DNA of 34,408 bases from an uncultured bacterium (GCA_937937315.1 CALDCK010000331.1:1-34408), one strand, 5' to 3'. Shown: positions 1,562 through 23,822, counted from the first letter of the stretch. Translations and numbers: made by a program. Notes: generated by a model not told the origin, from the letters alone.

Positions 1562-1577
1562 TGCAAGGTGGGTGCCC
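1562..1577 (-). promoter_or_regulatory. Sigma-54 (-24/-12) promoter for the WS/DGAT gene
   Basis: Minus strand reads GGGCACCCACCTTGCA, against the consensus TGGCACG-N4-TTGCW. The invariant GG and GC are separated by exactly 10 bases and the -12 box is perfect; the -24 box differs at its first and last bases. The predicted start is near 1551, giving a leader of about 24 bases containing the AGGGAGGAT ribosome site. This is the weakest of the four sigma-54 calls, but its position is ideal. Confidence 0.65.
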
Positions 1578-1669
1578 GGGGAAATTCACGACCCCGACGC
1601 GCCGAAGGGGCGCGTCGCCCCAAGCTCGGGGCAGGCGCGGGGCAGGATCGCCCGCTATTCGTGAAGGGG

Positions 1670-2494
1670 ATGACTCGTCGCTCCGATTGGAGACCCCGCC
1701 CTCCGGGGCGACAGTTCGAAGACACGCGCCGCGCGAATCCGAGATGGCCATTGGTCCTGGCCGAGGGCGATTCGTGGTTCGCCCACCCCACCGAGTGGAA
1801 CATCCTCTACCACCTCTCCGACCAGGGGGGCTATTCGATCCGTCGGTTGGCCTCGATCGGCCACACCCTGCGTGACATGGTGCGCGAAGCGCCGGGGCGG
1901 GTTCCCCAGTTCGTGCGCCAGCTCGAGCGCCCGGTTCCCTGGGAGCTGATGCTCTTCAGCGGTGGGGGCAACGATCTCCTCGGAGACCGGCTCCCCGACA
2001 TGCTGCGCCACCGCCGCGAGGTGTCCCGGGGCTGGCGCGGACTCATCCGAGACGAGGTCGTCGACGCAGAGCTGGCGAGCATCCGTCGCGCCTACGAACG
2101 GGTCATCTTCCGTACCGCCGAGCAGCGTCCCGAGTGCGAGATCCTGGCTCATGGCTACGACCACCCCCACCCGCGAGATCGAGGGGCTGCCCTCTTCTGG
2201 GGACGTCTCACGGTCACCGGACCGTGGATGCACCCGGTGATGGCGGGCGAGAAGGGAATCCGCGACGGCGAAATCCGCTACAAGCTGGCCCGCGAGCTCA
2301 TCGACCGACTCAATCGGACCCTCCGGGAGCTCTCGAAGAGCCACGCACGCTTCCACCACGTCGACCTGCGCGGGACCCTTTCCTCGGTCCGCCAGTGGAA
2401 GGACGAGATCCACCCGAAGAGCGCAGGATTCCGCAGGATGGCCCGGACGTTCCGGCGGGCGATGGACGCGGTGATCGAGGGACGGTCTGCATGA
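1670..2494 (+). CDS. SGNH/GDSL-like hydrolase
   Basis: About 274 residues from the ATG at 1670. The SGNH hydrolase blocks are visible: LAEGDSWF (nucleophile Ser in GDSW) about 30 residues in, LFSGGGNDLLGD (block III Asn), and WKDEIHPKSAG near the C-terminus (Asp/His of the triad). These enzymes hydrolyse esters or remove acyl groups from lipids, glycans or xenobiotics; the substrate is unknown here. No signal peptide is evident from this start, so a cytoplasmic location is likely. The start is uncertain: AAGGGG lies very close to the ATG, a GTG at 1661 is in frame, and the frame stays open to an ATG at 1568, but the sequence before 1670 is Arg/Gly-rich and does not resemble the family. It is divergent from the WS/DGAT gene and convergent with the PEP-CTERM gene. 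Confidence 0.85.
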   Translation: MTRRSDWRPRPPGRQFEDTRRANPRWPLVLAEGDSWFAHPTEWNILYHLSDQGGYSIRRLASIGHTLRDMVREAPGRVPQFVRQLERPVPWELMLFSGGGNDLLGDRLPDMLRHRREVSRGWRGLIRDEVVDAELASIRRAYERVIFRTAEQRPECEILAHGYDHPHPRDRGAALFWGRLTVTGPWMHPVMAGEKGIRDGEIRYKLARELIDRLNRTLRELSKSHARFHHVDLRGTLSSVRQWKDEIHPKSAGFRRMARTFRRAMDAVIEGRSA

Positions 2495-2535
2495 CATGCG
2501 CCGTCGTCGGCGCCCCGATCGCTCCGCTTGCCGCG

Positions 2536-3327
2536 TCAGTCGCGACGCGCCCGGCGCAGAAGCGAGAAGCCGACGAGCCCCGCGATGATCAGCGAGAACG
2601 ACGCCGGCTCGGGCACCACGTGCGCCCACTCCTCGAATCCGGCCCCCGAGCGCTCGGTGTCGCCGAAGCGCGAGTAGAGGATCACGTAGTCGTCAGGTGA
2701 GACCCCGGCGAAGACCGAGGCCGGCAGGGTCAGCAGCATGTCGCTGACGCCGCTTCCGGGCGCGTTGTTGAAGTCCAGAATGACCACGCTGTCGCTGCCG
2801 GCATCGAGATCGTAGATCAGCGTTCCGAGATCGCTGAGAACGCTCGTATTCTGGCCACCCGTGTCGGAGATGTAGATCTGGAGAGCATCGAGGGACAGGA
2901 GTGACTGACGCTCTCCGGCCGGCTCGTTGATGTCGAGGGCGAAGAGGAAGCTCCCCGCGGTCTGCATGAGATCGCCGAAGCGCAGATCCCGGGTGAAGCC
3001 ACCCGGCGGCGGGACCTCATCGAAGGCCGGATCGGGGTTGTCCGTGTTGTACCCCTCCTCGTTCCTGCTGGCGCGGATCCGCAGGAACGACTGCACCTTA
3101 CCGGTGCCGAAGGGCTGCTGATCGTCGAACTCGAAGAGCGCTCCGTTCACCGTGCCCGAAGATCCCTCTCCGGGAGTCAGGTCGACCATAGTGGCCGACG
3201 CCGATCTCTCTCCGAGGGAGATCGCAGCGGCTGCCATGCACAGGCAGACCCAGAAGGCCCGGCTCCGGATCGTCTTCCGCAGTCTGCACGCACCCCGGCC
3301 ATCTCTGCAATCGGTCTCACTCTGCAC
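2536..3327 (-). CDS. PEP-CTERM sorting-domain surface protein
   Basis: About 263 residues: an N-terminal signal segment (RSRAFWVCLCMAAAAISLG, cleavage probably after SASA), a beta-rich extracellular body with no recognised enzymatic motif, and a classic C-terminal sorting signal (VPEPASFSLIIAGLVGF, then LLRRARRD). PEP-CTERM proteins are secreted by Sec, cleaved or anchored by an exosortase, and often become part of exopolysaccharide/biofilm matrix; no exosortase gene is in this window. The start is set by AGGAG (minus strand, 3339-3335) followed by GTG GTG at 3330/3327; the upstream in-frame ATG at 3414 lacks such a site and would bury the signal peptide. The gene is preceded by a sigma-54 promoter and a terminator-like hairpin, leaving a leader of about 190 bases, which suggests transcriptional control at two levels. 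Confidence 0.9.
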   Translation of the reverse strand: MQSETDCRDGRGACRLRKTIRSRAFWVCLCMAAAAISLGERSASATMVDLTPGEGSSGTVNGALFEFDDQQPFGTGKVQSFLRIRASRNEEGYNTDNPDPAFDEVPPPGGFTRDLRFGDLMQTAGSFLFALDINEPAGERQSLLSLDALQIYISDTGGQNTSVLSDLGTLIYDLDAGSDSVVILDFNNAPGSGVSDMLLTLPASVFAGVSPDDYVILYSRFGDTERSGAGFEEWAHVVPEPASFSLIIAGLVGFSLLRRARRD

Positions 3328-3473
3328 CACGATGCTCCTGTCGAGCCGCAGTGGGACCGTCGCCACCGGAGGGTCTTCGCCGATCGAAGACACACGGGGA
3401 GCCTTGGCCCGCACGCGGGCCCCTTCCCCTCGAACCGGCGCCGGAAGACGCCAACGGAATGCGCGAGAAGCGC

Positions 3474-3513
3474 AAAAAAAAATGGAAGGAGCCGCCCCAA
3501 GGGGGCCCCTTCC
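3474..3513 (-). terminator. Terminator-like hairpin and U9 tract in the PEP-CTERM leader
   Basis: On the minus strand, positions 3513-3484 form a 10-bp stem (GGAAGGGGCC pairing with GGCTCCTTCC, one G-U pair) with a 10-base loop, followed after one A by nine consecutive T (3482-3474). This is the textbook form of a Rho-independent terminator. No minus-strand gene ends here: it lies between the sigma-54 promoter (predicted start near 3516) and the PEP-CTERM start codon, so it would act on that gene's own leader at about +4 to +43. It may be an attenuator, a source of a short RNA, or a 5' stabilising structure. It is the only long A/T run I noticed in the window. Confidence 0.7.
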
Positions 3514-3526
3514 GCCCCTCCAGTGT

Positions 3527-3542
3527 AGCAGGACTCGTGCCA
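3527..3542 (-). promoter_or_regulatory. Sigma-54 (-24/-12) promoter for the PEP-CTERM gene
   Basis: Minus strand reads TGGCACGAGTCCTGCT: a perfect TGGCACG -24 box, exact GG-N10-GC spacing, and CTGCT against TTGCW at -12. The predicted transcription start is near 3516. RpoN with a PrsR-type activator is known to control PEP-CTERM genes in some bacteria, so this fits the gene downstream. Confidence 0.85.
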
Positions 3543-3553
3543 GGAATCGGGAA

Positions 3554-3574
3554 CTAACAATTTCAAGGGGTTAG
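3554..3574. promoter_or_regulatory. Inverted repeat upstream of the sigma-54 promoter
   Basis: CTAAC-N11-GTTAG lies 12 bases upstream of the -24 box and within a locally AT-richer patch (about 3550-3640) that is unlike the surrounding DNA. A short palindrome CTCGCGAG follows about 15 bases further upstream. Either could bind an enhancer-binding protein or a regulator of the divergent DUF4336 gene. Half-sites of five bases are weak evidence. Confidence 0.3.
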
Positions 3575-3686
3575 CGCGGAAGCGGCTCCTCGCGAGAGAA
3601 AAGTTTCGCCGCGGATTGGGCAAAGGTTTTCTCGAATCCGTCGATCGCACCCACTCCCTTGCCGGACCGCATGCGATGATGGCGTC

Positions 3687-4385
3687 GTGCTGAGGGCATT
3701 CGGCGAGGATCTCTGGATCGCTGACGGGCCGCCCGTGCGCTTCCTGGGACAGTTCGACTACCCGACGCGCATGGCGGTCGTACGCCTGACGGACGGCGGT
3801 GTCTGGATGTGGTCCCCCATCGCGTGGAGCGCCGAGCTCTCGGAGGCAGTCGCGGCGATCGGACCGGTGCGGCACCTGGTGGCGCCGAACAAGATCCACC
3901 ACCTCAACCTGGGCCCTTGGGCTGCGGAGCATCCCGAGGCGCGACTCTGGGCGGCTCCGGGCCTCGCGCGGAGGCGCCCCGACCTGACCTTCCACGGCGA
4001 GCTCGCGGACACGCCGGCCCCGGCATGGTCCCAGGACCTCGATCAGCTCGTCTTCCGCGGCAGCGTCTTCATGGACGAGGTCGTCTTCTTCCACCGGGCG
4101 TCCCGCACTGCGCTCGTCTGCGACCTGATCCAACGCTTCGACCCGGCAACCCTCTCGGGCTGGCGCGGTGCCCTCATGCGCCTCGACGGGCTGGTCGGTC
4201 CCGAGGGCAGCACGCCCCGCGAGTGGCGCGCCAGCTTTCTGCGACGCAGCGCCGCCCGGATCGCTCTCCAGCGTGCGTTGGACTGGAGTCCAGAGCGCCT
4301 GGTAATCGCCCACGGCGATCTCCCCCTCGAGTCCGGTCGCGATGCCCTCGCACGCGGGCTGCGCTGGCTAGGTCCCCCCGGTTGA
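3687..4385 (+). CDS. DUF4336 domain-containing protein
   Basis: 232 residues, full length for DUF4336, a family distantly related to metallo-beta-lactamase folds but without an established function. Recognisable features are the opening LWIADGPPVRFLGQFDYPTRMAVVRL, the HLVAPNKIHHLNLGPW segment, and the late IAHGDLP motif, where His/Asp could hold a metal. It starts at GTG 3687 without a clear ribosome site. It is followed after 55 bases by the aldo/keto-reductase-like gene in the same direction, so the two probably form an operon. No signal peptide is visible, so it is likely cytoplasmic. Confidence 0.8.
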   Translation: MLRAFGEDLWIADGPPVRFLGQFDYPTRMAVVRLTDGGVWMWSPIAWSAELSEAVAAIGPVRHLVAPNKIHHLNLGPWAAEHPEARLWAAPGLARRRPDLTFHGELADTPAPAWSQDLDQLVFRGSVFMDEVVFFHRASRTALVCDLIQRFDPATLSGWRGALMRLDGLVGPEGSTPREWRASFLRRSAARIALQRALDWSPERLVIAHGDLPLESGRDALARGLRWLGPPG

Positions 4386-4440
4386 CGCCCCCATCGACAG
4401 CGGGGGACACTGCTCACCGACCGCGAGAGGACGCTCCGTC

Positions 4441-5292
4441 ATGCCCGACTTCCGCACGCCCGTTCCCCTCGGTCAGACCGGCCTCGAGGTGTCGCGGCTC
4501 GGCATCGGCTCGAGCTTCACCGGTGACCCACGCTTCATCGAGGAGGCCGTCGACCAGGGGGTGAACTACCTCTACTGGGGCTCGATCCGACGGCCGGCCT
4601 TCGGCCGTGCCATCCGCCACATCGCGCGACGTAAGCGCGAGAGCGTCGTGCTGACCGTGCAATCCTACTCACGGGTCGCGGCGCTGATGGCGCCCTCCAT
4701 CGAGCTTGCGCTGCGACGCACAGGCGTGGACTACTTCGACTTTCTGCTCCTCGGCATGTGGAACCAGCGGCCGTGGCCCAAGTTGTTGGACGCGGCGCGA
4801 AGCCTGCGCGAGCAGGGCAAGGTGCGCCACCTGATGCTGAGCACCCACAACCGCCCCTCGCTACGAGGCCACTTCGAGGCCTTCGAAGCCGGCGAGAGCC
4901 CCTTCGCCGCCTTCATGCTGCGCTACAACGCAGTCCACCGCGGTGCGGAGAAGGATGTATTCCCCTTCCTGCCGGAGACACGACGGCCGGGCATCGTCAC
5001 CTACACGACCACCCGCTGGGGCCACCTGCTCGACCCGGCGAAGATGCCCCCGGGCGAGACCCCTCCCCGAGCGCGTGACTGCTACCGCTTCGCGCTCTCC
5101 CACCCGGACGTCGACATGGCGCTTTGCGGCCCCGCGAATCGCGAGCAGATGCAGGAGGCGCTACGCGCCCTCGACGCAGGCCCCCTCGACCCGGAAGAGA
5201 CGAAGCGCATGGAACGGATCGGTGCACACATCTATCGGCACAACAAGCCGAAGTTCGCCGAGGGGGGCGACGCGAAGGGCACCGCCGTCTGA
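4441..5292 (+). CDS. Aldo/keto reductase-fold protein with a changed catalytic tetrad
   Basis: 283 residues. The AKR (beta/alpha)8 signature opens the protein: VPLGQTGLEVSRLGIGSS, then VDQGVNYLY, DYFDFLLLG and REQGKVRHLMLS. Aligned by eye with normal AKRs, the usual catalytic Asp is Tyr45 (NYLYWG in place of NFFDTA), the Tyr is Arg50, the Lys is Gln74 (VVLTVQS) and the His is Gly105 (LLLGMW). All four tetrad positions therefore appear altered, which argues against ordinary NADPH carbonyl reduction; a different reaction or a binding role is possible. The C-terminal part (PDVDMALCGPANREQMQEAL) keeps the family's cofactor-side pattern. The ATG follows GAGAGG. It is probably co-transcribed with the DUF4336 gene upstream. 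Confidence 0.85.
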   Translation: MPDFRTPVPLGQTGLEVSRLGIGSSFTGDPRFIEEAVDQGVNYLYWGSIRRPAFGRAIRHIARRKRESVVLTVQSYSRVAALMAPSIELALRRTGVDYFDFLLLGMWNQRPWPKLLDAARSLREQGKVRHLMLSTHNRPSLRGHFEAFEAGESPFAAFMLRYNAVHRGAEKDVFPFLPETRRPGIVTYTTTRWGHLLDPAKMPPGETPPRARDCYRFALSHPDVDMALCGPANREQMQEALRALDAGPLDPEETKRMERIGAHIYRHNKPKFAEGGDAKGTAV

Positions 5293-5474
5293 TCCCCGGT
5301 CGGCTTGGCCGCACACCTCGGCAGCCCGCCGGGAGGTCGGCCTTCGGCGTCGTAGAGCGCGGCGATCCGCGAGAATCCGTGGGCGCCTCCCACGAGCCCC
5401 ACCTTCGGATCGCGTCGTAGGTGTCCGGCGCCCGAGCGGGCGTCATGGGCATCGCCGCCTCGGAGATGACGTCT
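5293..5474. other. Convergent intergenic stretch with a coding-like tract
   Basis: This separates the converging AKR-like and alcohol dehydrogenase genes. On the minus strand, in the dehydrogenase frame beyond its stop, codons from about 5424 down to 5300 show strong G/C third positions and read a plausible peptide (VGLVGGAHGFSRIAALYDAE). No start with a ribosome site is seen and I do not recognise the peptide. It may be a gene remnant or chance. Confidence 0.25.
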
Positions 5475-6578
5475 TCACGCGAGATCGGCGTCGAGGACCA
5501 CTCGCGGCCGGACCGCGCTCCCCGAGGCCAGGGCCTCGAAGGCGTCGGCGACCCGGTCGAGGGGGAAGTCGGGCCCCGACATCTCCTCGAGTCGCAGCTC
5601 ACCCGCCATGGCGAACTCGAAGAAGCGGGGAAAATCGCTCTGCGGATCCGCAGAGCCGTGGATGGAGCCACGAAGCGTCTTGTCGAGGAGCAGGGCCACC
5701 ATCGGGATGCGAACCTCGGCGTCGAAGCCGGTCAGCCCCACGACCACGGCGCGGCCCCCCGGCGCCAGGGCGTCGAAGGCCTCGCGGGCAACCGCTGCGC
5801 TGCCGACCGACTCGATCGCAAGGTCCACGCCCCCCTCGGTGAGCTCCCGGATCGCCGCCACCGCTTCGGCGCCGGTGACCGACAGGAGATGCGTCGCACC
5901 GAGACCCTCGGCGAGGGCGAGCCGGGCCGGATTCGGGTCGACGGCGATGCGGATCGCCGCTTCCGCAATGCGCGCCCCCTGGATGGCCGACAATCCGACG
6001 CCGCCGCAGCCGAACACGGCAACCATCTCTCCTCGGCCAGCCTCACCGGACAGCATCGCGGCGCCAAGGCCGGTCGTCACACCGCAGCCGATCAGACACG
6101 CCAGGCGGAGAGGCAGCGCGTCGGGCACGGGGACGACGCTGCTCGCAGCGACGACGACACATTCGGAAAGACCCGAGACGCTCATGTAGCGACCCAGGGC
6201 CCGGTCGCCCCGGGAGAGCGACCCGTCGTTCGCGTCGGTTCGACTCGCCGCACCGACGTGGAAGCGCCCCGCGAGGCAGGCCCGACAGCGACCACAGCGC
6301 GGCACCCAGGACAGCACCACCCGATCTCCCTCCACGAGGTGCTCCACACCCGGGCCGAGGGCCTCGATCACGCCCGCCGCCTCGTGGCCGAGCACGGCGG
6401 GAAACTGGATGCCCTCTCCCGTGCGCCACACATGGAGATCACTGGCGCAGATGCCGCAGGCCGCAACCCTCACCCGCACCTCGCCCTTCCGAGGAGGGCG
6501 CACCACGACCTCCTCGATCCGCGGAAGCGCACCCGGCTCGTCGACCACCGCCGCGCGTACCCGGACCGCCTCGTTCAC
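5475..6578 (-). CDS. Zinc-dependent alcohol dehydrogenase (MDR superfamily)
   Basis: 367 residues. Catalytic zinc ligands fit the family: Cys41 (CGICASDLH), His65-Glu66 (LGHEAAGV) and the later IGCGVTTGLGA cysteine. The Rossmann motif is VFGCGGVGLSAIQGA, and the following acidic residue (AVDPNP) favours NAD(H). The structural zinc loop has Cys95, Cys98 and Cys101 (CGRCRAC), but the expected fourth ligand at about residue 109 is Gly, which is unusual. The enzyme probably oxidises primary or aromatic alcohols, or reduces the aldehydes; the substrate is unknown. GTG at 6578 is chosen because GAGAGGGG precedes it; the longer frame to 6848 overlaps the malic enzyme gene and is Arg/Gly-rich. It lies 256 bases downstream of the malic enzyme gene on the same strand, so it probably has its own promoter, which I could not identify. 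Confidence 0.92.
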   Translation of the reverse strand: MNEAVRVRAAVVDEPGALPRIEEVVVRPPRKGEVRVRVAACGICASDLHVWRTGEGIQFPAVLGHEAAGVIEALGPGVEHLVEGDRVVLSWVPRCGRCRACLAGRFHVGAASRTDANDGSLSRGDRALGRYMSVSGLSECVVVAASSVVPVPDALPLRLACLIGCGVTTGLGAAMLSGEAGRGEMVAVFGCGGVGLSAIQGARIAEAAIRIAVDPNPARLALAEGLGATHLLSVTGAEAVAAIRELTEGGVDLAIESVGSAAVAREAFDALAPGGRAVVVGLTGFDAEVRIPMVALLLDKTLRGSIHGSADPQSDFPRFFEFAMAGELRLEEMSGPDFPLDRVADAFEALASGSAVRPRVVLDADLA

Positions 6579-6834
6579 GTCACCCCTCTCTTGCCCCGGT
6601 CCGGGGCCTCCGGTCCGGCCCGCTCTCCGTGATCCCCGGCCGTTGGCGGACCGGCGGCCAATCCCGCAGTGAGCCCGCCCCCGGAAGCTCGGCGCGTCGC
6701 GACTCCTCTCGAACTTCGCAGCTCGCACCATACCATCTCGAGCGCGGCCGAATCGTCTCGCTCTCCAACAGCACTTCTCGCCGCGAACTCCACCCGCTCC
6801 GAGGTCGACGCGGTCTCGCGTGGCGTGGGGCCGG

Positions 6835-8574
6835 TCAGCCGGACTCACCAGGCGTCGGCGCGGGTTTTCTCGGAAGGATCGGCACGTAGCGCGGGAACCA
6901 CATCGACTCGCGCACGACTCCCTCCACCTCGGCGTCGGGCACCGGACGGCCGAGCCTGCTCTCGCCGGCGTAGCGGATGACCGCGGCGGCTACCTTCGCA
7001 CTCGCCTCGCGTAGATCCGATGGGTCCGGGTAGAGCGCTCCCAGCAGCAGGCGCTCGTCGTCGACGCTGTCGGCGAGAGCCCTCGCCGCGGCGTAGAAGA
7101 CCTCGTCGGGCACCTCCTGCATCTGCGAAAGGATCACACCGAGGCCCACTCCGGGAAAGATGAAGACGTTGTTCCCCTGTCCGATCACGTGCCGGACGCC
7201 GTCGTGCACGACGTCCGCGAAGGGGCTCCCGGTCGCGACGATGGCGCGACCGCCGGTCCACTCGATCGCCTCCTTGGGCGAGCACTCGGACTTGCTATTC
7301 GGATTCGAGAGCGGCATCACGATCGGCCGTTCCACGTGCCTTGCCATCTCCTCGATCATCGTCCTGTGGAACATTCCCGGCGTCGCCGTGGCGCCGATCA
7401 GGACGGTGGGCTTCACCCGAGCGATCACCTGCTCGGGAGTGGGGTCGTCGATCCCATCGAGGCCGTAGTGGCCGAGCACGGCCCGACTCGCCACCAGGCC
7501 CTCCTTGTAGGGCTCACGTACGGGAATGCCCTCCCGCAGCAGACCCTTCCGGTCGAACAGGAGGTGCGCGCGGGCGATCACCTCTTCCTCGACCCCCTCG
7601 GCCCGCATGGAGGCGCGGGCGAGCTGGCAGATCCCCGTGCACGCCTCGCCGGCGCCCATATAGACGAAGCGCTGGTCTCGGAGCGACTGGCCGGTGATGC
7701 GCAGCCCCGCCAGGACGCCAGCCACCGCCACGGCCGCGGTGCCCTGGATGTCGTCGTTGAAGCAGGGAATCCGCCGGCGGTACCGGGCGAGGATCTCGAA
7801 GGCGTGGTCCTTGTGGAAGTCCTCCCACTGCACGACGGCCCTCGGGAACACCTCGCGCACCCCCTCCACGAAGGCCTCGATGAAGGCGTCGTACCCCGCA
7901 CCGCGCAGACGGCGTCCGGGGTGCCCCATGTAGAGCGGATCGTCGAGGAGCTCCGGGTTGTCGGTACCAACGTCGAGGCTGATCGGCAGGACCTTCGAGG
8001 GATGGATGCCTGCACCGGCGATGTAGAGCGCCAACTTGCCGATGGGAATGCCCATGCCGCCCGCACCCTGATCGCCCAGACCGAGGATGCGCTCGTTGTC
8101 GGTCACGACGATGAGGCGGATGTCCTGAAGGGGATACTCCCGCAGACGCTCTGGAATCCGGTCGATGTCCGCCGGGGTGAGCCAGATGCCGCGTACGCTG
8201 CGTTGGATGTGGCTGTACTTCTGGCACGCGAGACCGACGGTGGGCGTGTACACGATCGGCATGAGCTCGGCGAGATGCTCCACCAACACGCGATGGAAGA
8301 GGACCTCGTTGCGATCCTGGAGGACCGAGAGCCCGATGTACTTCTCCAGGGCGTCGGGCTTCGCCCGCAGGTGCTCCATCTCGAGCTCTACCTGCTGCTC
8401 GATGGAGAGGATCCGCGGGGGCAGGAGGGCGCTCAGTCCGAGGCGATCGCGCTCTTCCTGGGAGTAGGCGAGCCCCTTGTTGGTCGCGGGATTCTTCAGC
8501 AGCCAGAAACCCCGCTTGCTCGTTCGAATGACGTCTGGGCCCCGAACCACGCGCGGATCCGTGTCGCCCGGCAC
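6835..8574 (-). CDS. maeA: NAD-dependent malic enzyme
   Basis: 579 residues, close to the 565 of the large bacterial NAD-malic enzyme. It converts malate to pyruvate and CO2 with NAD(P)H formation in the cytoplasm. Visible signatures: PIVYTPTVG (catalytic Tyr), LIVVTDNERILGLGDQGAGGMGI (catalytic Lys follows in PIGKL), the metal site in QWEDFHKDHAF and CFNDDIQGTA, and the nucleotide fold in YMGAGEACTGI. The GTG start at 8574 lies one base after the upstream gene's TAG and has GGGAG eight bases before it; a start at 8613 would overlap that gene by 38 bases. It forms a two-gene operon with the BCAM0308-family gene and so probably answers to the sigma-54 promoter at 9071-9086. Terminal residues show nothing abnormal. 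Confidence 0.95.
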   Translation of the reverse strand: MPGDTDPRVVRGPDVIRTSKRGFWLLKNPATNKGLAYSQEERDRLGLSALLPPRILSIEQQVELEMEHLRAKPDALEKYIGLSVLQDRNEVLFHRVLVEHLAELMPIVYTPTVGLACQKYSHIQRSVRGIWLTPADIDRIPERLREYPLQDIRLIVVTDNERILGLGDQGAGGMGIPIGKLALYIAGAGIHPSKVLPISLDVGTDNPELLDDPLYMGHPGRRLRGAGYDAFIEAFVEGVREVFPRAVVQWEDFHKDHAFEILARYRRRIPCFNDDIQGTAAVAVAGVLAGLRITGQSLRDQRFVYMGAGEACTGICQLARASMRAEGVEEEVIARAHLLFDRKGLLREGIPVREPYKEGLVASRAVLGHYGLDGIDDPTPEQVIARVKPTVLIGATATPGMFHRTMIEEMARHVERPIVMPLSNPNSKSECSPKEAIEWTGGRAIVATGSPFADVVHDGVRHVIGQGNNVFIFPGVGLGVILSQMQEVPDEVFYAAARALADSVDDERLLLGALYPDPSDLREASAKVAAAVIRYAGESRLGRPVPDAEVEGVVRESMWFPRYVPILPRKPAPTPGESG

Positions 8575-8575
8575 C

Positions 8576-9043
8576 CTAGCGCTCCCAGAGCACCCGGAGG
8601 ACGCCCCCCTCATCCGTGTAGTGATAGTCGAGCTTCCCGTCGTAGGCGTCGTGGAGCGCCGTGCCGAGATTTCTCGCGAGAGCGGCCTCTGTGGTCTTCA
8701 CCGTCACCTCTCCCTCGCCCTCGACGACCGACATGATCCGTTTCTGCGGATGACGTCGCGTCTCGCGGTCCTCGACGTTCCGCACCAGACCGATCACCTC
8801 CTCGCGATGTCGGAGATTGAACTCGCCCCGGAGCGTCAGGACTCCAGCCGGATAATCGTCCCGCACGCGCTGGCAGGCCGGACAGATCACCCGGGCGGCC
8901 TCCGCCGGGGCGGCGGTCCACTCCCAGCGGCCTTTGTGGTACCTGGCCCCGCAGTCGCCGCAGGCGGCAGGCTCGTGGAGCTTCTGCCGGAGCTTGTAGG
9001 GATCGTGCTCGCGCTCGCGAATCAGGCGGTCTCGACGGGTCAT
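8576..9043 (-). CDS. BCAM0308-family zinc-ribbon protein
   Basis: 155 residues. The opening TRRDRLIREREHDPYKLRQKL and two CxxC pairs (Cys28/Cys31, Cys54/Cys57, the latter as ICPAC) mark the BCAM0308 family, a small zinc-ribbon protein of unknown function. The rest (about 65-155) is an alpha/beta domain with alternating charged strands. The namesake gene lies, as I recall, in the low-oxygen-activated (lxa) locus of Burkholderia cenocepacia, so a role in low-oxygen or stationary-phase survival is a reasonable guess only. ATG at 9043 follows AGGGAGGG. A near-perfect sigma-54 promoter lies just upstream, and the stop is one base before the malic enzyme start, so translation of the two is likely coupled. 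Confidence 0.85.
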   Translation of the reverse strand: MTRRDRLIREREHDPYKLRQKLHEPAACGDCGARYHKGRWEWTAAPAEAARVICPACQRVRDDYPAGVLTLRGEFNLRHREEVIGLVRNVEDRETRRHPQKRIMSVVEGEGEVTVKTTEAALARNLGTALHDAYDGKLDYHYTDEGGVLRVLWER

Positions 9044-9070
9044 CGGCGGCCCTCCCTACTCCGAGGAGGG

Positions 9071-9086
9071 AGCAATCCACGTGCCA
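9071..9086 (-). promoter_or_regulatory. Sigma-54 (-24/-12) promoter for the BCAM0308-maeA pair
   Basis: Minus strand reads TGGCACGTGGATTGCT, a complete match to TGGCACG-N4-TTGCW with GG-N10-GC spacing. The predicted start is near 9060, giving a 17-base leader that holds the AGGGAGGG ribosome site. The remaining 245 bases up to the divergent zinc-finger gene hold no gene and are very GC-rich, with several short inverted repeats; an activator site could lie there. Confidence 0.9.
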
Positions 9087-9331
9087 GGATGAGGCACCCT
9101 GCGAGCGCGTAGCGGCGGCTCGAGGCCCCCCACCTTCTCGACACGAGGCGATTCGCCTCAGTCGAGCCGACTCGGGTGTCCCAGGCACCCCTGGGCCCCG
9201 GGTTCCGGGTTCCGGCGCGCCGGGGGGAGCGGGCCCGGCCCGGGGCGGCCCTGCCAGGCGCAGGTGGTTGTTCGATGCCTCAGGGTGGGGAAACCTCCCG
9301 CTCGGGCCCACTACGGGCCAGGGAGGTGGTG

Positions 9332-9649: not shown

Positions 9650-9708
9650 CTCGTGTCACGGCACGCATCCGCGTGGTGCGCCCGATCCACCACTCCAGGG
9701 ACTCGTCC

Positions 9709-15210: not shown

Positions 15211-15246
15211 GCACCCAGGGGGCGGCAGCTCCCGGGGGCGGACGAC

Positions 15247-16614: not shown

Positions 16615-16678
16615 CTCACCCCCCTCGGGAGCCTAGCCTTCTGGAGGGGTGGGCACCCAGACAGACGGGATCCGCTCG

Positions 16679-17380
16679 TCACGCATGATCGAGGAGCATC
16701 AGCTCCCCGGGGTGAGGCTCGAGGAACGGCTGGCCCTCGAGAGCCCCGATTCGATGGATGCGAACGTGATGGCGGATCAGGGAGATCGGCACCACCCGGG
16801 GAACGAGACCGCAGAGATCGTCGCGAACGAGCTCGGCCATCTCCCTCCGCGACGCAGGATCCAGCTGCTTCGCGAGTTTCCGGGCCGCGTGCTGGAGAAC
16901 CTTCGCGCTGCGCCCGCGCGAGGGCATTCGCCCGAGGGCTTGCATGAACTCGCGCTCGTAGGACTCGCGAAACCCGGTCCGGGGAGTGTCCTTCAGCGCC
17001 GCGACCGGACGTCCGAGCTCGCGGCAGGCCTCGGGTGAGTGCGCCATCAGCTGTAGCTCGTGGGCCGCGTGAAAGACCTCCACACGGGGCCTCGTCCAGC
17101 GCCCGCCGAAGAGCGCCCGGATGCGCCAGTTGCCGAACAGCCGAACGATGAAGTTCTCGCGCACGCCCGGATCCTCGAGCCGCCTCTCGTCCTCGACGGG
17201 CAGGTTGGGCCAGGCCTCGATCAGACGCGCGGCGTAGACTCCCGGGCCGTCTCGCCGCAGCGCGCCCATCTCCGTAAACACCTTCACGCGAGTCGATCCG
17301 CAGCTCGGCCAGTCCCTCTTCAGGACGTAGCCGCCGAGGTCGAGAGCCCGCAGCGGACGCTCCTCGATCGGCGCCGTCAT
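16679..17380 (-). CDS. DUF523/DUF1722 (YbgA-like) protein, DUF523 N-terminally truncated
   Basis: 233 residues from the ATG at 17380. The first 90 match the second half of DUF523: GYVLKRDWPSCGSTRVKVF, GVYAARLIEAWPNLPVEDE, then RLEDPGVRENFIVRLFGNWR. Residues about 95-225 form a complete DUF1722 (VFHAAHELQLMAHSPEACRELG). The usual DUF523 opening with SACLLG and CPE cysteines is absent here and in the other two minus-strand frames up to 17560. No ribosome site precedes 17380, and the upstream 176 bases hold no gene. Either this is a shortened but working protein that keeps only one of the DUF523 cysteines, or the 5' end was deleted. DUF1722 proteins are often found near photolyase and other DNA-repair genes; none is seen here. 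Confidence 0.7.
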   Translation of the reverse strand: MTAPIEERPLRALDLGGYVLKRDWPSCGSTRVKVFTEMGALRRDGPGVYAARLIEAWPNLPVEDERRLEDPGVRENFIVRLFGNWRIRALFGGRWTRPRVEVFHAAHELQLMAHSPEACRELGRPVAALKDTPRTGFRESYEREFMQALGRMPSRGRSAKVLQHAARKLAKQLDPASRREMAELVRDDLCGLVPRVVPISLIRHHVRIHRIGALEGQPFLEPHPGELMLLDHA

Positions 17381-17556
17381 GGGCGGGCCACGCGAGGTCC
17401 GAGCCGATATGATGCGACGACCTCGCCCTGCCCTTCGGCCTCGAGAGAAGTTCGAAGGTCCCATGGCTGCGAATCCGTGGGTGCAAACACGATGGCGAGC
17501 ATGACGACGGATGGATCGACCCCGGAGCCGTGGGTCCGAATACTGGAATGGGAGCC

Positions 17557-18189
17557 ATGAGACTCTACTTCTTTCCCATCGCACCGAACCCGACGAGGGT
17601 GAGACTCCTGCTCGAGGAGAAGCGCAGCGCAGGTGCCGAGATCTCGATCGAAGAGGTTCCGGTGGATCTCTCCCAGGGTGATCAGCGCCGGCCCGAACAT
17701 CTGGCGCGCAATCCCTTCGGCAGTCTACCGGTACTGGAGCTGGACGATGGAGGGCACCTGATCGAGTCCGAGGCGATCCTCGAGTATCTCGAGGATCGCT
17801 ACCCCGACCCCCCGCTGCTCGGCCGGGACCCGGAGGACCGGGCGCGCACGCGCCAGCTCGAATTCATCGCCTTGCTGCGGGTCCTGATGCCGATCGCCCG
17901 CCTCGTCCACGCCACTCGCTCCCCCCTCGGCCGCCCGCCGAACGAGGAGCTGGCGAAGGACGCAAGGGCGTCGCTTCCCGCCGGCCTGGGCTTCCTCGAT
18001 GACGCCCTGTCCGATGGGCGGAGCTTCGTCGCCGGAGCCCGCCCCACCGTGGCCGACTGCACACTCGCCGCGGCGCTCCAGGTCGCGCGCTTCGGCGGGG
18101 TCGAGATCGATCCGAGCCTGCGACACCTGGATCGCTGGAGCCGGGAGTTTCGCGAGCGGCCCAGCGCGAAGACGGTCCTCGTGCTCTGA
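17557..18189 (+). CDS. Glutathione S-transferase family protein
   Basis: 210 residues. The thioredoxin-fold N-domain (about 1-80) shows MRLYFFPIAPNPTRVRLLLEEK, NPFGSLPVLELDDGGHLIESEAILEYLEDRYP (cis-Pro in LPVLE, Glu-Ser glutathione contact). The all-helical C-domain includes FVAGARPTVADCTLAAALQVAR with the conserved N-capping Asp. The active Ser/Tyr/Cys is not certain: Ser and Cys are absent from the first loop, where PNPTRVR has Thr. It conjugates or binds glutathione in the cytoplasm; the substrate is unknown. ATG at 17557 follows GGGAGCC. It is divergent from the DUF1722 gene and convergent with the sensor kinase gene. Confidence 0.9.
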   Translation: MRLYFFPIAPNPTRVRLLLEEKRSAGAEISIEEVPVDLSQGDQRRPEHLARNPFGSLPVLELDDGGHLIESEAILEYLEDRYPDPPLLGRDPEDRARTRQLEFIALLRVLMPIARLVHATRSPLGRPPNEELAKDARASLPAGLGFLDDALSDGRSFVAGARPTVADCTLAAALQVARFGGVEIDPSLRHLDRWSREFRERPSAKTVLVL

Positions 18190-18204
18190 GCCGTCGGCGG
18201 TCGT

Positions 18205-20082
18205 TCAGGCCCCGAGGCTCTCCGGATCCGGCGCGACGATCGGAAGCAGCACTTCGAAGCGCGCACCGTGCCCCGGCTTGGACTCCACGCGGATCTCGCC
18301 GCCGTGGGCGCGCACGATCTCGTAGGAGATATAGAGGCCGAGGCCAGTACCCTCTCCGACCGCCTTGGTGGTGAAGAAGGGGTCGAAGATCCGCTCGCGG
18401 GCCACGGGGTCGATGCCCGGACCGTCGTCCTCGATCCGGATCGCGGCGCGCGATCCGAGGTCCTTCGTCGTCACCCGCAGCGTCCCCGTCTCCCCCATCG
18501 CCTGGAAGGCATTCACGACGAGGTTCAGGATGACCTGCCCCAGCTGGCTGGCGATACAGGAGATGGGCTCGATCGGTGCGTAGGCGCGCTCGACGACGAT
18601 GCCTGCCGGACGCTGAACCTCGGCGACACGCAACGCTCCGTCGATCAGCTCCGAAAGATCGAATCGCTCGAAGCGGGTATCGCTCGCCCGGGAGAACTCG
18701 CGCACCTCGCGCACGATCGCGATCGCCCGGTCGACGCCCTCGAGGGAGTCGTCGATGAGCTCCTCGCACTCGCCGAGGTTCGCCGTCAGCGGATCCGGCC
18801 ACCCCGCCTTCTCGGCGTCCGCCGTGAGGGCGCCCCACTCACGCCGCAAGGCGCCGAGGTTCGAGCGGACGTAGGCCATCGGATTGTTGATCTCGTGGGC
18901 GATGCCCGCGGCGAGCTGCCCCACGGACTCGAGCTTCTGCGACTGTCGGATGCGCTCCTCGAGTTCGATTCGCTCCGCGACCCGACCGACCTGAAGGCCC
19001 GTGTCGGCGAGGACCCGGATCATCCGCTCGTCGATGGGAGTGGCGTCGCCGCCGAAGAACTCGAGAATCGCGACCACCTCGTCGGCCGAAGGCACCGGGA
19101 TCGCAACGACCGACCGCAGCCCGAGCTCTGCGGCACAGCGCCCCCGCGGCGAGTCCGAGGTGGCGATGCGGCCCTCGGTAGCCCACACGGGGCGGCCGGA
19201 TTCGACGACCCTTCTCAACGCGTTGTCGCCGGGCCCCAATCGGGTCTCCAGGGTCAGCCGCCTCAGAGGTGCGTAGTGCACCGAATCGTCGTCGAGCCAC
19301 ACGGGGCCCGAGACGAGATCGCCGGAGCCGTCGACAGCGAGCGACCAGACGTGGGCCACGTGCCAGCCGCTGGTCTCCATCGCCCGCCGCGCAAAGCCCT
19401 CGAGCGCACTCTCGAAGGTGCGAGCCTCGTTCGCGGCCACGGCGGCATGCTGCAGCAGCTTGACGCAGGCCGCCTCCCGCGCCAGGTCCCGGTGACTCTC
19501 CTCGAGCTCTCGATCGGCGTTCCGCTGGCTCACGACGAAGCTCGTCGAGAGCACCGCCAGACCGGCGATCGCCGTCAGACGATTGAAGAGCGCCTGGGCC
19601 TCCATCGATTCCGCCGGCACCAGGTTCGGCACCACGATCCCGTAGGAGGGAAGCAGCCAGAAGACCACGGTGCTCACCATGGCCACGGCCGTCCAGGCCC
19701 AGCTGCTGCCGAGCCCGAGCAGGTAGGCGGCGGCCACCGGAATCGTGTAGAGCCAGGCGAAGTTGGGATCGTAGAAGCCGCCGGTGGACGAGAGCGAGAG
19801 CAGAAGCAGCGTGCAGTAGAGGCCGATGGCGAGATTTCCGGCGCGGCGCGTGCGCCCTGACCGGCGCAGCCACACGAGGTTCGCTCCGCAGGCCGCCATC
19901 GTGATCAGCAGAGCACCGGTGAGGCTCGGGACGCCCAGGGCCCAGTAACGGAAGGCCGTTGGGATGCCGATCGTGAACATCCCAAGGGTGCCCAGCTGAA
20001 TCGCCCGCGCCCGCCGCTCGTCGTCGGCACGCAGCCGCGTAGACCGGGCGATTCCGGCGCCCGCCGATTCCAAGCGCAGCAT
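18205..20082 (-). CDS. Membrane-bound sensor histidine kinase with GAF domain
   Basis: 625 residues. Residues about 28-190 hold five or six membrane segments (e.g. LTGALLITMAACGANLVWL, AVAMVSTVVFWLLPSYGIV). A coiled linker (RNADRELEESHRDLAREAA) leads to a GAF domain (about 230-370; SVVAIPVPSADEVVAILEFF). Then come the dimerisation/phosphoacceptor region with His396 (IAHEINNP), and the ATPase domain with N box (QVILNLVVNAFQAM), G1 (DDGPGID), F (FDPFFTTK) and G2 (GEGTGLGLYI). No receiver domain or adjacent response regulator exists, so it is an orphan kinase and its partner is elsewhere. The HEINNP type with ATPase is common among kinases that feed sigma-54 activators. The start at 20082 follows AGGGA; a longer frame to 20286 runs into the divergent symporter gene. 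Confidence 0.92.
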   Translation of the reverse strand: MLRLESAGAGIARSTRLRADDERRARAIQLGTLGMFTIGIPTAFRYWALGVPSLTGALLITMAACGANLVWLRRSGRTRRAGNLAIGLYCTLLLLSLSSTGGFYDPNFAWLYTIPVAAAYLLGLGSSWAWTAVAMVSTVVFWLLPSYGIVVPNLVPAESMEAQALFNRLTAIAGLAVLSTSFVVSQRNADRELEESHRDLAREAACVKLLQHAAVAANEARTFESALEGFARRAMETSGWHVAHVWSLAVDGSGDLVSGPVWLDDDSVHYAPLRRLTLETRLGPGDNALRRVVESGRPVWATEGRIATSDSPRGRCAAELGLRSVVAIPVPSADEVVAILEFFGGDATPIDERMIRVLADTGLQVGRVAERIELEERIRQSQKLESVGQLAAGIAHEINNPMAYVRSNLGALRREWGALTADAEKAGWPDPLTANLGECEELIDDSLEGVDRAIAIVREVREFSRASDTRFERFDLSELIDGALRVAEVQRPAGIVVERAYAPIEPISCIASQLGQVILNLVVNAFQAMGETGTLRVTTKDLGSRAAIRIEDDGPGIDPVARERIFDPFFTTKAVGEGTGLGLYISYEIVRAHGGEIRVESKPGHGARFEVLLPIVAPDPESLGA

Positions 20083-20227
20083 CAGACCGATCCCTGCCCC
20101 ATCGGATCCACCCCTCCTTCTATCGGTCCGCCCGGGGTGCCGATGAAGAAGGTCCCGATTGCAGCCCCAGCGGAGCGCTCCACGCCGCGCCTGGCGCGCA
20201 TCCGAGACGAACCGCAAGCTGGGGCGG

Positions 20228-22159
20228 ATGCCCCCCCAGGTTGATCCCATTCGCGGCGCCCTCACCGGACTCGATGCGCTGATCATCCTCGCCTTTGCGG
20301 CCTACGCCCTCACCGTGGGCTGGCGGGCGCGCAAGAAGGCGTCGAGCGGTCTCGAGTCCTACTTCCTGGCGTCGCGAAGCCTCAGCGGCTGGAAGGCTGG
20401 GCTCAGCATGGCGGCGACCCAGTTCGCGGCGGACACGCCGCTGCTGGTCACGGGACTGATCGCCACCGCCGGGATCTTCTCCCTGTGGAGGCTCTGGATC
20501 TACGCCCTCGCGTTCCTGCTTCTTGGCTTCCTGCTTGCGCCGAGCTGGCGGCGCGCACGGGTGGTGACCGACGCGGAGCTCGCCGAGATCCGCTACGGCT
20601 CGCGAGGCGCCGCATGGCTGCGCGCCGCGAAGGCGCTCTACTTCGGCACGGTCTTCAACTGCGTAGTCCTCGCCATGGTCTTCTGGGCCGCGAAGGAGAT
20701 CGCGGAGCCCTTCCTGTCCTGGCACGACTGGTTGCCGACCGCGGTCTTCGAGCCAGTCCGGACCGTGGTCGCGTGGGTGGGCGTCCCCTTTGCGAGCGTC
20801 GGGAGCGGAGGAGCGGAGACCTGGATCCGCTCTGCCGACAACCTCATCTCCCTCGCGCTGCTGCTCGGCGTGACATTCCTCTACTCCGCAACCGGAGGAC
20901 TCCGGGGTGTGGTGCAGACCGACGTCGTCCAGCTCGCCCTGATGCTGGGCGCGACCGCGCTCTACGCCGGAATCGTCCTGTTCGAGACGGGAGGCCCCCA
21001 CGCCCTCGCGACGCAGCTCCGGGAGACCTACGCCGCGGGAGGGCCGGGGGGCATCCGACCCGACGAGATGCTCGCATTCACACCCTCACGCGCGAATGAC
21101 GCGGGCCTGGCACTGCTCGCGGTGTTCGGACTCCAGTGGCTGGTGCAGATGAACGCGGACGGGACGGGCTACCTCGCACAGCGCACGATGGCCTGCCGCA
21201 GCGACGCCGATGCCGTGCGCGCGACCCTCGTCTTCAGCGTCACCCAGATCCTGGTGCGCAGCCTGCTCTGGCTGCCGATCGGCGTGGGTCTGCTCGTTCT
21301 CTTCCCCGCGGAGCCTGGTGTGATGGGGGCAACGCTCGTCGCCGAACGCGAGGCGACCTTCGTCCGGGGAATGGCGGAGCTGCTCCCCACGGGCGTCCGA
21401 GGCGCGATGCTCGCCGCCATGCTGGCGGCTCTCGCCTCGACGATCGACACCCACCTGAACTGGGGGGCGTCCTACTGGTCCAACGACCTCTACGGCCGCT
21501 TCTACTGCAGCTGGCGCGGACGACCGGCTCACCCACGCGAGCTCGTACGCGTTGCGCGCATCTCGAGCGGCCTGATCCTCCTCATCGCTTTGGCCGTGAT
21601 GACTCAGCTCGCCTCGATCCAGGCGGCGTGGCACGCGAGCCTGCTGCTCGGAGCCGGTATGGGGGTGCCCCTGGTGTTGCGCTGGATCTGGTGGCGCGTC
21701 ACGGCCTGGGGAGAGCTCGCGGCGATCCTCACCTCGACGGCGCTGGCGCCCGTGCTGCTCCAGGTCACGGACCATGAAGCGCTGCGTCTGCTTGCGATCG
21801 CGGCAGCCTCGACGATCGCAGCGGTGGCGACATCCCTCATCGGCCCGACCGAGCCCCGCGCGCAGCTACGAGTCTTCTACGTCCGGGTCCGACCTCCGGG
21901 CTTCTGGCGACCCATAGCCCGGGAAGCATCCGGGGCGGCCGACGACGGCCCGCGCCGGCTCGCAGGCGCGCTCGCGGCCACCGGACTCACCGCCCTCTGC
22001 CTCTTCTGCACCCTCACGGGCCTCGGATCATGGCTGGTCGAAGGTACACCCCCGAGCTGGCTCCCGGACCGCAGCACCTGGATCGCCCTGCTGCTGGGGC
22101 TCGCTGCGGCCCTCGCGCCCCTCGCCTGGCGCTTCGCGTCCCCCTTCGTGCGCCGCTGA
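20228..22159 (+). CDS. Sodium:solute symporter (SSS) family transporter
   Basis: 643 residues with about 13-14 hydrophobic segments. SSS-family marks: an early helix (LDALIILAFAAYALTVGW), then ESYFLASRSLSGWKAGLSMAATQFAADTPL (TM2-TM3 substrate/sodium region), FLYSATGGLRGVVQTDVVQLALML and AAMLAALASTIDTHLNWGASY (the Na+-binding helix with Ser/Thr). It imports an organic solute with Na+ at the inner membrane; the solute cannot be named. The C-terminal 100 residues carry two more helices and a short tail. ATG at 20228 follows GGGGCGG. It is divergent from the sensor kinase, so a shared control region of 145 bases lies between them, and it ends one base before the convergent transporter's stop. Confidence 0.9.
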   Translation: MPPQVDPIRGALTGLDALIILAFAAYALTVGWRARKKASSGLESYFLASRSLSGWKAGLSMAATQFAADTPLLVTGLIATAGIFSLWRLWIYALAFLLLGFLLAPSWRRARVVTDAELAEIRYGSRGAAWLRAAKALYFGTVFNCVVLAMVFWAAKEIAEPFLSWHDWLPTAVFEPVRTVVAWVGVPFASVGSGGAETWIRSADNLISLALLLGVTFLYSATGGLRGVVQTDVVQLALMLGATALYAGIVLFETGGPHALATQLRETYAAGGPGGIRPDEMLAFTPSRANDAGLALLAVFGLQWLVQMNADGTGYLAQRTMACRSDADAVRATLVFSVTQILVRSLLWLPIGVGLLVLFPAEPGVMGATLVAEREATFVRGMAELLPTGVRGAMLAAMLAALASTIDTHLNWGASYWSNDLYGRFYCSWRGRPAHPRELVRVARISSGLILLIALAVMTQLASIQAAWHASLLLGAGMGVPLVLRWIWWRVTAWGELAAILTSTALAPVLLQVTDHEALRLLAIAAASTIAAVATSLIGPTEPRAQLRVFYVRVRPPGFWRPIAREASGAADDGPRRLAGALAATGLTALCLFCTLTGLGSWLVEGTPPSWLPDRSTWIALLLGLAAALAPLAWRFASPFVRR

Positions 22160-22160
22160 G

Positions 22161-23030
22161 TCAGCTCTCCGGCTCACGGCGGCGCCACCACAGGACGGCG
22201 ATCCCCGCCAGCGGATAGCCAACCGCCACATAGAGGCCGCCAAAGAAGGTGAGGTCGAGCCGGTCGAGGCCCGAGAGTGCGATGATGGTCGCGACGGCGA
22301 CGTTCCGGGCCGAGAACTCGACCAGGAAGGTGAAGCGATCCGGGGCGGAGAGCCGCAGGAGGACGGCCATGCCCCAGCCGATCGCCATCGCCGACAAGGT
22401 CCAGACCCCGGCGGCCAGGAATCCGATCCCGAGGTCGTCGAAGCCAACCTGCATGTCCTCCTCGTCACTGAAGACGATGGACAGGGCGACCAGCACTGCG
22501 ATCGCGATCATCGCCCAGCGTTGGATCCGCGGGGCGTAGCGATGGGCGAGATCCGGACGACGCGCGCGCACGAGCATCCCGAGCGCGATGGGCAGGAGCA
22601 GTGCGAAGGCGAGCTGGAGGGTGAGCACGCCGACCGGCACGTCCACGACGATACTGTCACCGAGGAAGACCCGGACCCCGAGCGCCGCGACCACGGGCAG
22701 GGTCGCGACAGAGAGCACCGAGGCCACCCCGGTCAAGGTGACGGAGAGAGCCGTGTTCGCGCGTGCCAGGGCGACGAGGATGTTGGAGATCCCGGCACCG
22801 GGCGACGCCGCCACCAGGATCGCACCCGCACCGAAGACCGGCGGCACGTCGAGCAGCGCCACGACGCACCAGGTCATCAGGGGCAGCAGAAGGAGCTGCG
22901 CGAGGGTGCCGCCGACCACCGCCGCCGGCGCCCGCATGACCCGGTAGAAGTCCGCCGGCGTCAGCTCGAGCCCGACGATCACCATCAGGATGAAGAGCAC
23001 GACGGGGCCGACGAGCTGGGTCTCGGTCAT
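22161..23030 (-). CDS. Bile acid:sodium symporter (BASS/SBF) family transporter
   Basis: 289 residues with eight to ten hydrophobic helices. The family marks are visible: VGLELTPADFYRVMRAP (the crossing loop after helix 1), ILVAASPGAGISNILVALARANTALSVTLT (the discontinuous helix with Na+-binding residues) and FSARNVAVATIIAL (second crossover, the ARN-x-A motif). It imports organic anions with Na+, for instance keto acids or sterol-like acids. ATG at 23030 lacks a good ribosome site, but the helix 1 start fits. The family's N-terminal helix looks slightly short. It is convergent with the SSS gene. Confidence 0.9.
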   Translation of the reverse strand: MTETQLVGPVVLFILMVIVGLELTPADFYRVMRAPAAVVGGTLAQLLLLPLMTWCVVALLDVPPVFGAGAILVAASPGAGISNILVALARANTALSVTLTGVASVLSVATLPVVAALGVRVFLGDSIVVDVPVGVLTLQLAFALLLPIALGMLVRARRPDLAHRYAPRIQRWAMIAIAVLVALSIVFSDEEDMQVGFDDLGIGFLAAGVWTLSAMAIGWGMAVLLRLSAPDRFTFLVEFSARNVAVATIIALSGLDRLDLTFFGGLYVAVGYPLAGIAVLWWRRREPES

Positions 23031-23220
23031 GGGATCGATGGGGCCTTCGGCGGGGCGCAGGGAATCGCCAGTGTGACGCCAACGCCCTTTCGGCGCGAAC
23101 CCCCGGCACTGCTCCGACCTCCGACCCGGTCCGCCGGATGATCGCGAGAACGTCTCGGGGCCGCAGTACGTTCGTCACAATCCGGACCGATGCTTCCTCC
23201 GAACAAGAAGAGGAAGAACG

Positions 23221-23436
23221 ATGAAGATCGAGACTCGACTGTCGGGGACCACGACCGTCCCCATCCGAAAGAGCGGTGGTGGCTACGCCGCCGAGGGTCC
23301 GGGGTTCTACATCTGGGACGAGGATCCCCAGGAGGTCTTCCGCGTCGCGCGAGTGCTCGAGGGCGGAAGGACCCGGATGCGACCGACCACGCGCCTCCTG
23401 GTGATGCGCTCGGATCTGGAGATCACCCCGTCCTGA
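23221..23436 (+). CDS. Small protein of unknown function
   Basis: 71 residues (MKIETRLSGTTTVPIRKSGG to SDLEITPS). The ATG sits eight bases after a purine-rich AAGAGGAAGA site, and codons keep G/C at the third position. No signal peptide or membrane helix is seen; predicted strands suggest a small beta-rich or Ser/Thr-rich fold with a central GPGFYIWDEDPQEVFRVARVLE. I do not recognise a family. It is divergent from the BASS gene and the upstream 190 bases have no other gene. Confidence 0.6.
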   Translation: MKIETRLSGTTTVPIRKSGGGYAAEGPGFYIWDEDPQEVFRVARVLEGGRTRMRPTTRLLVMRSDLEITPS

Positions 23437-23806
23437 GGAAGGGCCAGGGGGGATCGGAGACCGGGCGACGAACGATTCTCGGGTGCAGCCACCCGGCTCG
23501 CCCACGCAGCAACAGTCGGGAACGGCCAGCGCGTGTCTTCCGCTCGACATTGCGCCCCACCCCACGTACGCCGCCGCGGTCGCCGACCTCGTGAAGCGGG
23601 CTCCGAGGAGCGAGAGGGCTCCCTCGAGCTGGGCGACTGGAGCGCTGGCGCCTGGCTCGTCCAGACGACGGGGCCGAACCGACCCACCGGAAGGGTCTTC
23701 TCTCCGAGCCGGCTCGAAGCTGCAGTTGGTGCGCTGCACGCAGGCCGGGACCTGCGGCGCAGCCACCCTGCTGGAGCCGCCCCGGGCCGCTTCGGGCTTC
23801 CCATGC
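23437..23806. other. Non-coding region upstream of the DUF4389 promoter
   Basis: About 370 bases with no convincing gene. Open frames here are Pro/Arg/Gly-rich, lack ribosome sites and show no family. It ends directly at a sigma-54 promoter, and promoters of this type need a remote activator site, so this may hold an enhancer. A cluster of short inverted repeats (CTCC/GGAG, CTCGAG) lies around 23600-23640. Confidence 0.4.
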
Positions 23807-23822
23807 TGGCACGGCCTCTGCA
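23807..23822 (+). promoter_or_regulatory. Sigma-54 (-24/-12) promoter for the DUF4389 gene
   Basis: TGGCACGGCCTCTGCA: a perfect -24 box, GG-N10-GC spacing and CTGCA at -12. The predicted start is near 23833, giving a 39-base leader with AGGAGG at its end. Confidence 0.88.

Follow-up and report, generated by a model that had tools for sequence, protein, structure and literature searches.

Whether four sequences resembling the −24/−12 promoters of sigma-54 (RpoN), each lying before a gene in one contig of an uncultured bacterium, form a single local regulon or a set of separate switches is the question raised by the locus described here. The stretch analysed (the window, 34,408 nucleotides) is a complete contig of a 4.26 Mb draft assembly comprising 486 contigs and estimated to be 84.5% complete. 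A preliminary description had placed all four sites in one local RpoN regulon, and in the current study this proposal was examined through scans of the window and the genome, comparison with related genomes and analysis of candidate enhancers and activators.

Probable sigma-54 promoters in the window and the genome

The four sequences were verified at their positions and strands, and all retain GG-N10-GC: site 1 (GGGCACC-N4-TTGCA, positions 1562–1577, minus strand), site 2 (TGGCACG-N4-CTGCT, 3527–3542, minus), site 3 (TGGCACG-N4-TTGCT, 9071–9086, minus) and site 4 (TGGCACG-N4-CTGCA, 23807–23822, plus). Compared with TGGCACG-N4-TTGCW, site 3 has no mismatch, sites 2 and 4 have one each and site 1 has two; on a matrix with a maximum of 19.2 they score 13.3 (site 1, the weakest), 16.3, 19.0 and 16.4, respectively. 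As had been described, each precedes a gene, the start codon lying 34, 199, 27 and 49 nt beyond the end of the −12 box for sites 1 to 4, respectively, and the window yielded zero further intergenic matches at the threshold of 12.5.

The assertion that such matches are not expected by chance fared less uniformly. In the window alone it did not hold, as five matches with up to two mismatches were found where the expectation was 2.93, and five or more also arose in 18 of 100 shuffled sequences. Genome-wide, the reversed pattern was almost as frequent as the true one (37 versus 44 matches at no more than one mismatch), a result that, like the window test, is what chance matches in GC-rich sequence would give; a better control in which only the spacing is changed was therefore required. 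Motif matches were sorted into genic and non-genic with a custom-made codon-usage gene caller applied to sampled contigs. By this measure 41 of the 44 TGGCACG-N4-TTGCW matches are non-genic and 32 lie directly upstream of a gene on the same strand, whereas the same half-sites at N5 spacing gave 14 matches, 12 of them inside genes. Because twenty of the contigs in the matrix scan had been picked for carrying hits, the test was rerun on 480 kb of unpicked contigs, where four upstream matches scoring at least 12 were found at N4 spacing against a mean of approximately 0.6 at other spacings. It is thus spacing and placement across the genome which uphold the assertion, and these controls, together with conservation across genera and the linked enhancers described below, render chance a scarcely credible explanation of the sites; for site 1 alone it may yet apply.

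The genome encodes one RpoN (PF04552, E 7e-63) and has about 13 strong matches to the enhancer-binding activator domain PF00158. Since these genes accompany the bias in spacing and placement, the motif behaves, as judged from sequence, like a functioning promoter class in this genome with at least 40 strong members, three of which lie in the window along with one weaker site. It is very probable that three or more of the four sites are genuine sigma-54 promoters, this reading being supported for sites 2, 3 and 4 and plausible for site 1, where conservation lends no support. A candidate upstream enhancer is clear at site 4 and fits moderately at site 3, while the search yielded none at site 1 or site 2, either individually or in common.

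Site 4 and a proposed phage-shock-type operon

Site 4 precedes a gene for a DUF4389 membrane protein (23872–24261, plus strand, starting with ATG 23872; PF14333, 62.5 bits; cut-off 25). Orthologs in several genera and families have the −24/−12 site upstream as well, and a search of named genomes added more examples; a recognisable site is absent in four of at least 14 relatives. The named relatives are mostly metagenome assemblies assigned to Myxococcota or 'Deltaproteobacteria', and widening the search to the entire order returned the identical 80 genomes. A motif-free dyad search of ten ortholog promoters identified TGCAG-N8-CTGCA (here termed enhancer A) in nine of the ten at no more than one mismatch, with a p value of 1.8e-18 before correction for the approximately 13,000 dyads tried. 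In the window an exact copy occupies positions 23721–23738, 68 nt ahead of the −24 box; a degenerate copy, CGCAG-N8-CTGCG (23739–23756), follows it in tandem at an offset of 18 bp as against mostly 19–20 bp in relatives. In the 909 kb of sampled sequence there are two exact copies.

Two exact copies of enhancer A also accompany a sigma-54 site (score 16.4) at the promoter of an operon on another contig of the same genome, C46, in which a histidine kinase with a 2TM domain, a second kinase, an NtrC-type regulator and PspA (PF04012, 66.8 bits) are encoded in one direction. The only other occurrence noted at a promoter of this genome is a copy with one mismatch, 161 nt before the promoter of a stress gene on contig C59. 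Across the class, enhancer A combined with a −24/−12 site was found in 34 of 91 genomes, compared with three matches in total for the reversed pattern. At 30 such loci examined the commonest downstream gene, in about half, is the histidine kinase with the 2TM domain, and the remainder include genes for DUF4389 and for small DUF5683-like membrane proteins; one locus precedes a secreted protein similar to a sigma-54 target on contig C153 of the present genome, whose own promoter lacks enhancer A. The regulator adjoining the kinase in relatives is 73–78% identical to the C46 activator over the part compared, and an arrangement of one or two kinases, regulator and PspA behind enhancer A and a sigma-54 promoter was present in each of the 17 relatives whose sequence extended far enough.

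We infer that C46 carries a phage-shock-type operon, a two-component system acting via sigma-54, and that the DUF4389 gene of the window, with which it has an operator in common, is an output of this system. The observed promoter and enhancer sequences, their placement, their conservation and the operon content suggest a scheme whose binding events, signal, direction of control and protein functions are all predictions: envelope stress, the presumed signal, would lead the kinase with the 2TM domain to phosphorylate the C46 regulator, which would bind TGCAG-N8-CTGCA upstream of the −24 box and activate both its own operon (kinases, regulator and PspA) and the DUF4389 gene, the product of the latter being a presumed membrane-protecting partner of PspA.

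A Psp system in the broad sense consists of a PspA/IM30 protein under the control of an envelope-stress regulator; the C46 operon encodes the PspA protein, and its regulator would be a putative regulator of this kind. Classical PspF-type membership, defined by an AAA+ domain and a Fis-type HTH without a receiver domain and by a score above the PspF model cut-off, was considered for the C46 system and rejected on account of the regulator's receiver domain and of its score, 284, which lies below the cut-off of 443.6. What the system would have in common with the PspF/sigma-54 Psp response of Enterobacteriaceae (PMC9239133) is control of PspA by an NtrC-family AAA+ activator acting at a sigma-54 promoter. 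It differs in that the activator here possesses a receiver domain and is encoded in the operon beside one or two kinases, the first of which has a 2TM domain, and in that it is predicted to serve an unlinked DUF4389 gene as well. Kinases near pspA are mentioned in the portions of two Psp surveys matched by keyword (PMC11237479, PMC9239133), and those portions make no mention of DUF4389 or of the kinase-regulator-PspA arrangement. The proposed membrane-stress switch of site 4 is widely conserved and apparently undescribed. We hold with reasonable confidence that it represents an undescribed phage-shock pathway, occurring widely within the class to which these uncultured Myxococcota-like bacteria belong, in which kinase(s), an NtrC-type regulator and PspA are self-activated via sigma-54 and tandem enhancers, with DUF4389 and small DUF5683-like proteins as dispersed outputs. 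The proposal amounts to a phage-shock response of two-component, sigma-54 type for which the enhancer is defined. A literature search found no functional study of the DUF4389 family, for which the proposed role would, if true, provide the first regulatory context.

Site 3 and a candidate protoglobin kinase system

Site 3 precedes a BCAM0308-family gene (8576–9043, minus strand, starting with ATG 9043; NF040826 lxa_BCAM0308, 193.8 bits; cut-off 100). The malic enzyme gene maeA (6835–8574, minus, boundaries from the gene caller; PF03949 288 bits, PF00390 227 bits) follows directly and presumably belongs to the same operon. Of the BCAM0308 copies found in relatives, roughly half have an N4 site scoring at least 12 upstream, and none has one at N3 or N5 spacing.

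A candidate for the activator is encoded on contig C66, where the genes for a protoglobin histidine kinase (PF11563, 132.6 bits) and an NtrC-type regulator are adjacent and neighbour those of two CBS proteins; the regulator gene and one CBS gene are each preceded by a sigma-54 site. The equivalent regulator gene of relatives has a sigma-54 site 12–16 nt upstream in most of those read, and around it lie CBS, universal stress and other genes, a good number of which have sigma-54 sites of their own; in two relatives BCAM0308 itself adjoins the protoglobin kinase or lies within about 3 kb of it. From 15 regulator promoters of this type a palindrome, aTGTGgCAtaaTGcCACAt, was learned, which also matches universal stress and CBS promoters outside the training set and the C59 stress gene of the present genome (p 0.003), and has no match to speak of at DUF4389 promoters. 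In the window it fits moderately (p 0.018) a palindrome containing GAGGCGATTCGCCTC at positions 9143–9161, the candidate enhancer of site 3, which lies 56 nt ahead of the −24 box.

Site 3 is probably part of an oxygen regulon headed, like Nmp of Myxococcus, by a protoglobin kinase and an NtrC-type regulator; in it the C66 kinase and regulator would switch on BCAM0308-maeA when oxygen is short, together with the universal stress and CBS proteins. Control of BCAM0308-maeA by some other activator is a less probable reading, yet one to be taken seriously: the fit at site 3 is only moderate, the palindrome is missing from several BCAM0308 relatives and, in the two genomes in which BCAM0308 lies beside the protoglobin kinase, one promoter lacks a recognisable copy, while four of ten BCAM0308 promoters have instead GWGGC-N5-GCCWC in common. 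Against such an activator stand the gene neighbourhoods, which link BCAM0308 with protoglobin kinase, CBS and universal stress genes, and the combined p of about 1e-4 (Fisher sum) for the C66-type motif over the ten BCAM0308 promoters. The palindrome at 9143–9161 is also the only intergenic GWGGC-N5-GCCWC in the 909 kb sampled; as a BCAM0308 enhancer in its own right this pattern was judged suggestive only (about 1.8e-3 after correction) and was not adopted.

The closest known counterpart of the C66 system, whose parts resemble NmpU and NmpR, is NmpRSTU of Myxococcus xanthus (PMC11841059). Both combine a protoglobin kinase with an NtrC-like regulator and sigma-54 promoters; self-activation and targets among the CBS and universal stress genes, both of them predictions for C66, are further points in common. 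They differ in the operator, which is GCGCA-N5-TGCGC in Nmp and TGTGgCA-N3-TGcCACA at C66-type loci, and in circuitry, Nmp being a multi-part relay through NmpS/NmpT whereas kinase and regulator lie side by side at C66; neither the Nmp operator nor the relay was found at C66-type loci. The Nmp study makes no mention of BCAM0308, a part of the low-oxygen-activated (lxa) locus of Burkholderia, for which CRP-family proteins are the putative regulators (PMC4981469). BCAM0308 is common to that locus and the one described here, as are, in relatives, neighbouring genes for universal stress, CBS and ribonucleotide reductase proteins; the promoter here is by contrast of the sigma-54 type. The control proposed for site 3 would extend Nmp-like oxygen regulation towards BCAM0308.

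Two further observations concern the BCAM0308 protein: it weakly matches the Pfam model of NMD3, a ribosome export adaptor (28.2 bits against a cut-off of 24.9), and at one relative's locus (L105) a ribosome-hibernation-like gene adjoins BCAM0308. Together these hint at a possible ribosome-related role.

Sites 2 and 1

Site 2 precedes a PEP-CTERM protein gene (2536–3327, minus strand; PF07589, 22.1 bits, above cut-off), for which the start codon GTG 3327 is proposed from an AGGAG 7 nt before it and a signal peptide. Control of PEP-CTERM genes by RpoN was correctly cited as known in the preliminary description: sigma-54 sites with long leaders before such genes are an established target class (PMC1569441) and the RpoN dependence of the PEP-CTERM gene pepA has been demonstrated by experiment (PMC9850573). 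In the present genome 4–5 of 20 PEP-CTERM genes have a sigma-54 site; one clear relative of the site 2 gene was found in a search for orthologs, and it lacks one. Between site 2 and the gene lies a feature resembling an intrinsic terminator (3474–3513, minus), consisting of a hairpin (3484–3513; −24.5 kcal/mol, z −2.66) that begins within about 14 nt after the site and is followed by nine T (3474–3482), a structure of a kind seen in 4 of 150 background upstream regions.

Either this leader attenuates or much of the transcription from site 2 would stop at the hairpin. The position of the hairpin and T-run immediately after the predicted start and a leader longer than at the other targets are consistent with site 2 yielding a transcript of about 40 nt, the gene itself having another promoter. 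Weighed against the long leaders of this known RpoN target class (PMC1569441), and against the other PEP-CTERM genes of this genome that have a site and no such hairpin, this is a minority possibility of some weight; the preferred reading is that site 2 would drive the PEP-CTERM gene, possibly with attenuation at the leader terminator. The 16-mer of site 2 is repeated exactly on contig C145, before an unrelated, uncharacterised protein and with no leader hairpin.

Sigma-54 sites before PEP-CTERM genes (here site 2 and 3–4 others) are a feature in common with the PrsK/PrsR system. The present genome differs in the terminator within the leader, in the lack of a common enhancer, a search for a shared motif among PEP-CTERM promoters giving EM scores barely above those of shuffled sequence, and in the lack of a PrsR-level match, the best score against TIGR02915 being 439.7 (cut-off 502.6) among the eight of about 13 activators scanned in this incomplete draft genome. 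Beside the DUF4389 gene, at 24258–32918 (minus), the window also encodes a 2886-residue protein with many bacterial Ig-like/PKD repeats and a PEP-CTERM-like tail (LPEPGAEGLLAGLIGLGALARRRARR), before which there is no sigma-54 site scoring 12.5 or more.

Site 1 may drive a WS/DGAT acyltransferase gene (58–1527, minus strand, starting with GTG 1527; PF03007 230 bits, PF06974 98 bits), in front of which it is well placed. No convincing recurrence of an equivalent site was seen upstream of close WS/DGAT homologs, and we incline, with some reserve, towards regarding site 1 as a real promoter. A perfect GC-rich palindrome, GGGGCGCGTCGCCCC, at positions 1590–1608 could be an operator or a hairpin; it lies about 29 nt ahead of site 1, within the divergent stretch that precedes a plus-strand gene at 1751.

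One regulon or separate switches

The occurrence of four good sites within 34 kb is above the genome average and is the principal argument for one local regulon under one activator. At 41 sites in 4.26 Mb, 0.33 are expected per 34 kb and three strong ones have a probability of about 0.005 for a single window; genome-wide, however, about 0.6 windows with three strong sites are expected, and the three found here amount to a mild cluster, expectable somewhere in such a genome. Among the four sites enhancer A occurs only before site 4, the C66-type motif is without a copy at DUF4389 promoters, and the target genes differ in kind. The different enhancers at sites 3 and 4 therefore point to different activators, and because of this difference a single shared regulon was dismissed as highly improbable. 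In place of the local regulon of the preliminary description, the sites belong with 40 or more promoters spread over the genome.

The explanation we favour, and consider probable as a whole, is that the four sites would be sigma-54 promoters drawn from this RpoN set and connected to different activators, site 4 being of phage-shock type, site 3 of oxygen type and site 2 of the PEP-CTERM class. Sigma-54 promoters adjoining one another need not form one regulon, and in bacteria without genetics the sighting of a motif may in this manner be converted into testable links between activator, operator and target.

Other sigma-54 sites in the genome

Strong sigma-54 sites were also observed before lpxC, a second PspA-like gene, a type IV pilin gene and a Flp-like pilin gene (contigs C318, C367, C406 and C180), which would place outer-membrane and pilus genes under RpoN. 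An Rfam scan of the window and of two sRNA-like loci gave zero matches. These two loci, L252 (contig C434, 3039–3145, plus strand) and L094 (contig C272, 12300–12410, minus), each have a perfect sigma-54 site with no gene after it, followed by a near-identical strong hairpin and a T-rich end that would delimit an RNA about 85 nt long, with fold z values of −4.5 and −6.0. The two loci also have in common a GTGAC...GTCAC palindrome lying upstream and a bulge rich in C, CCCCUCCC, and may possibly encode twin sigma-54-dependent small RNAs.
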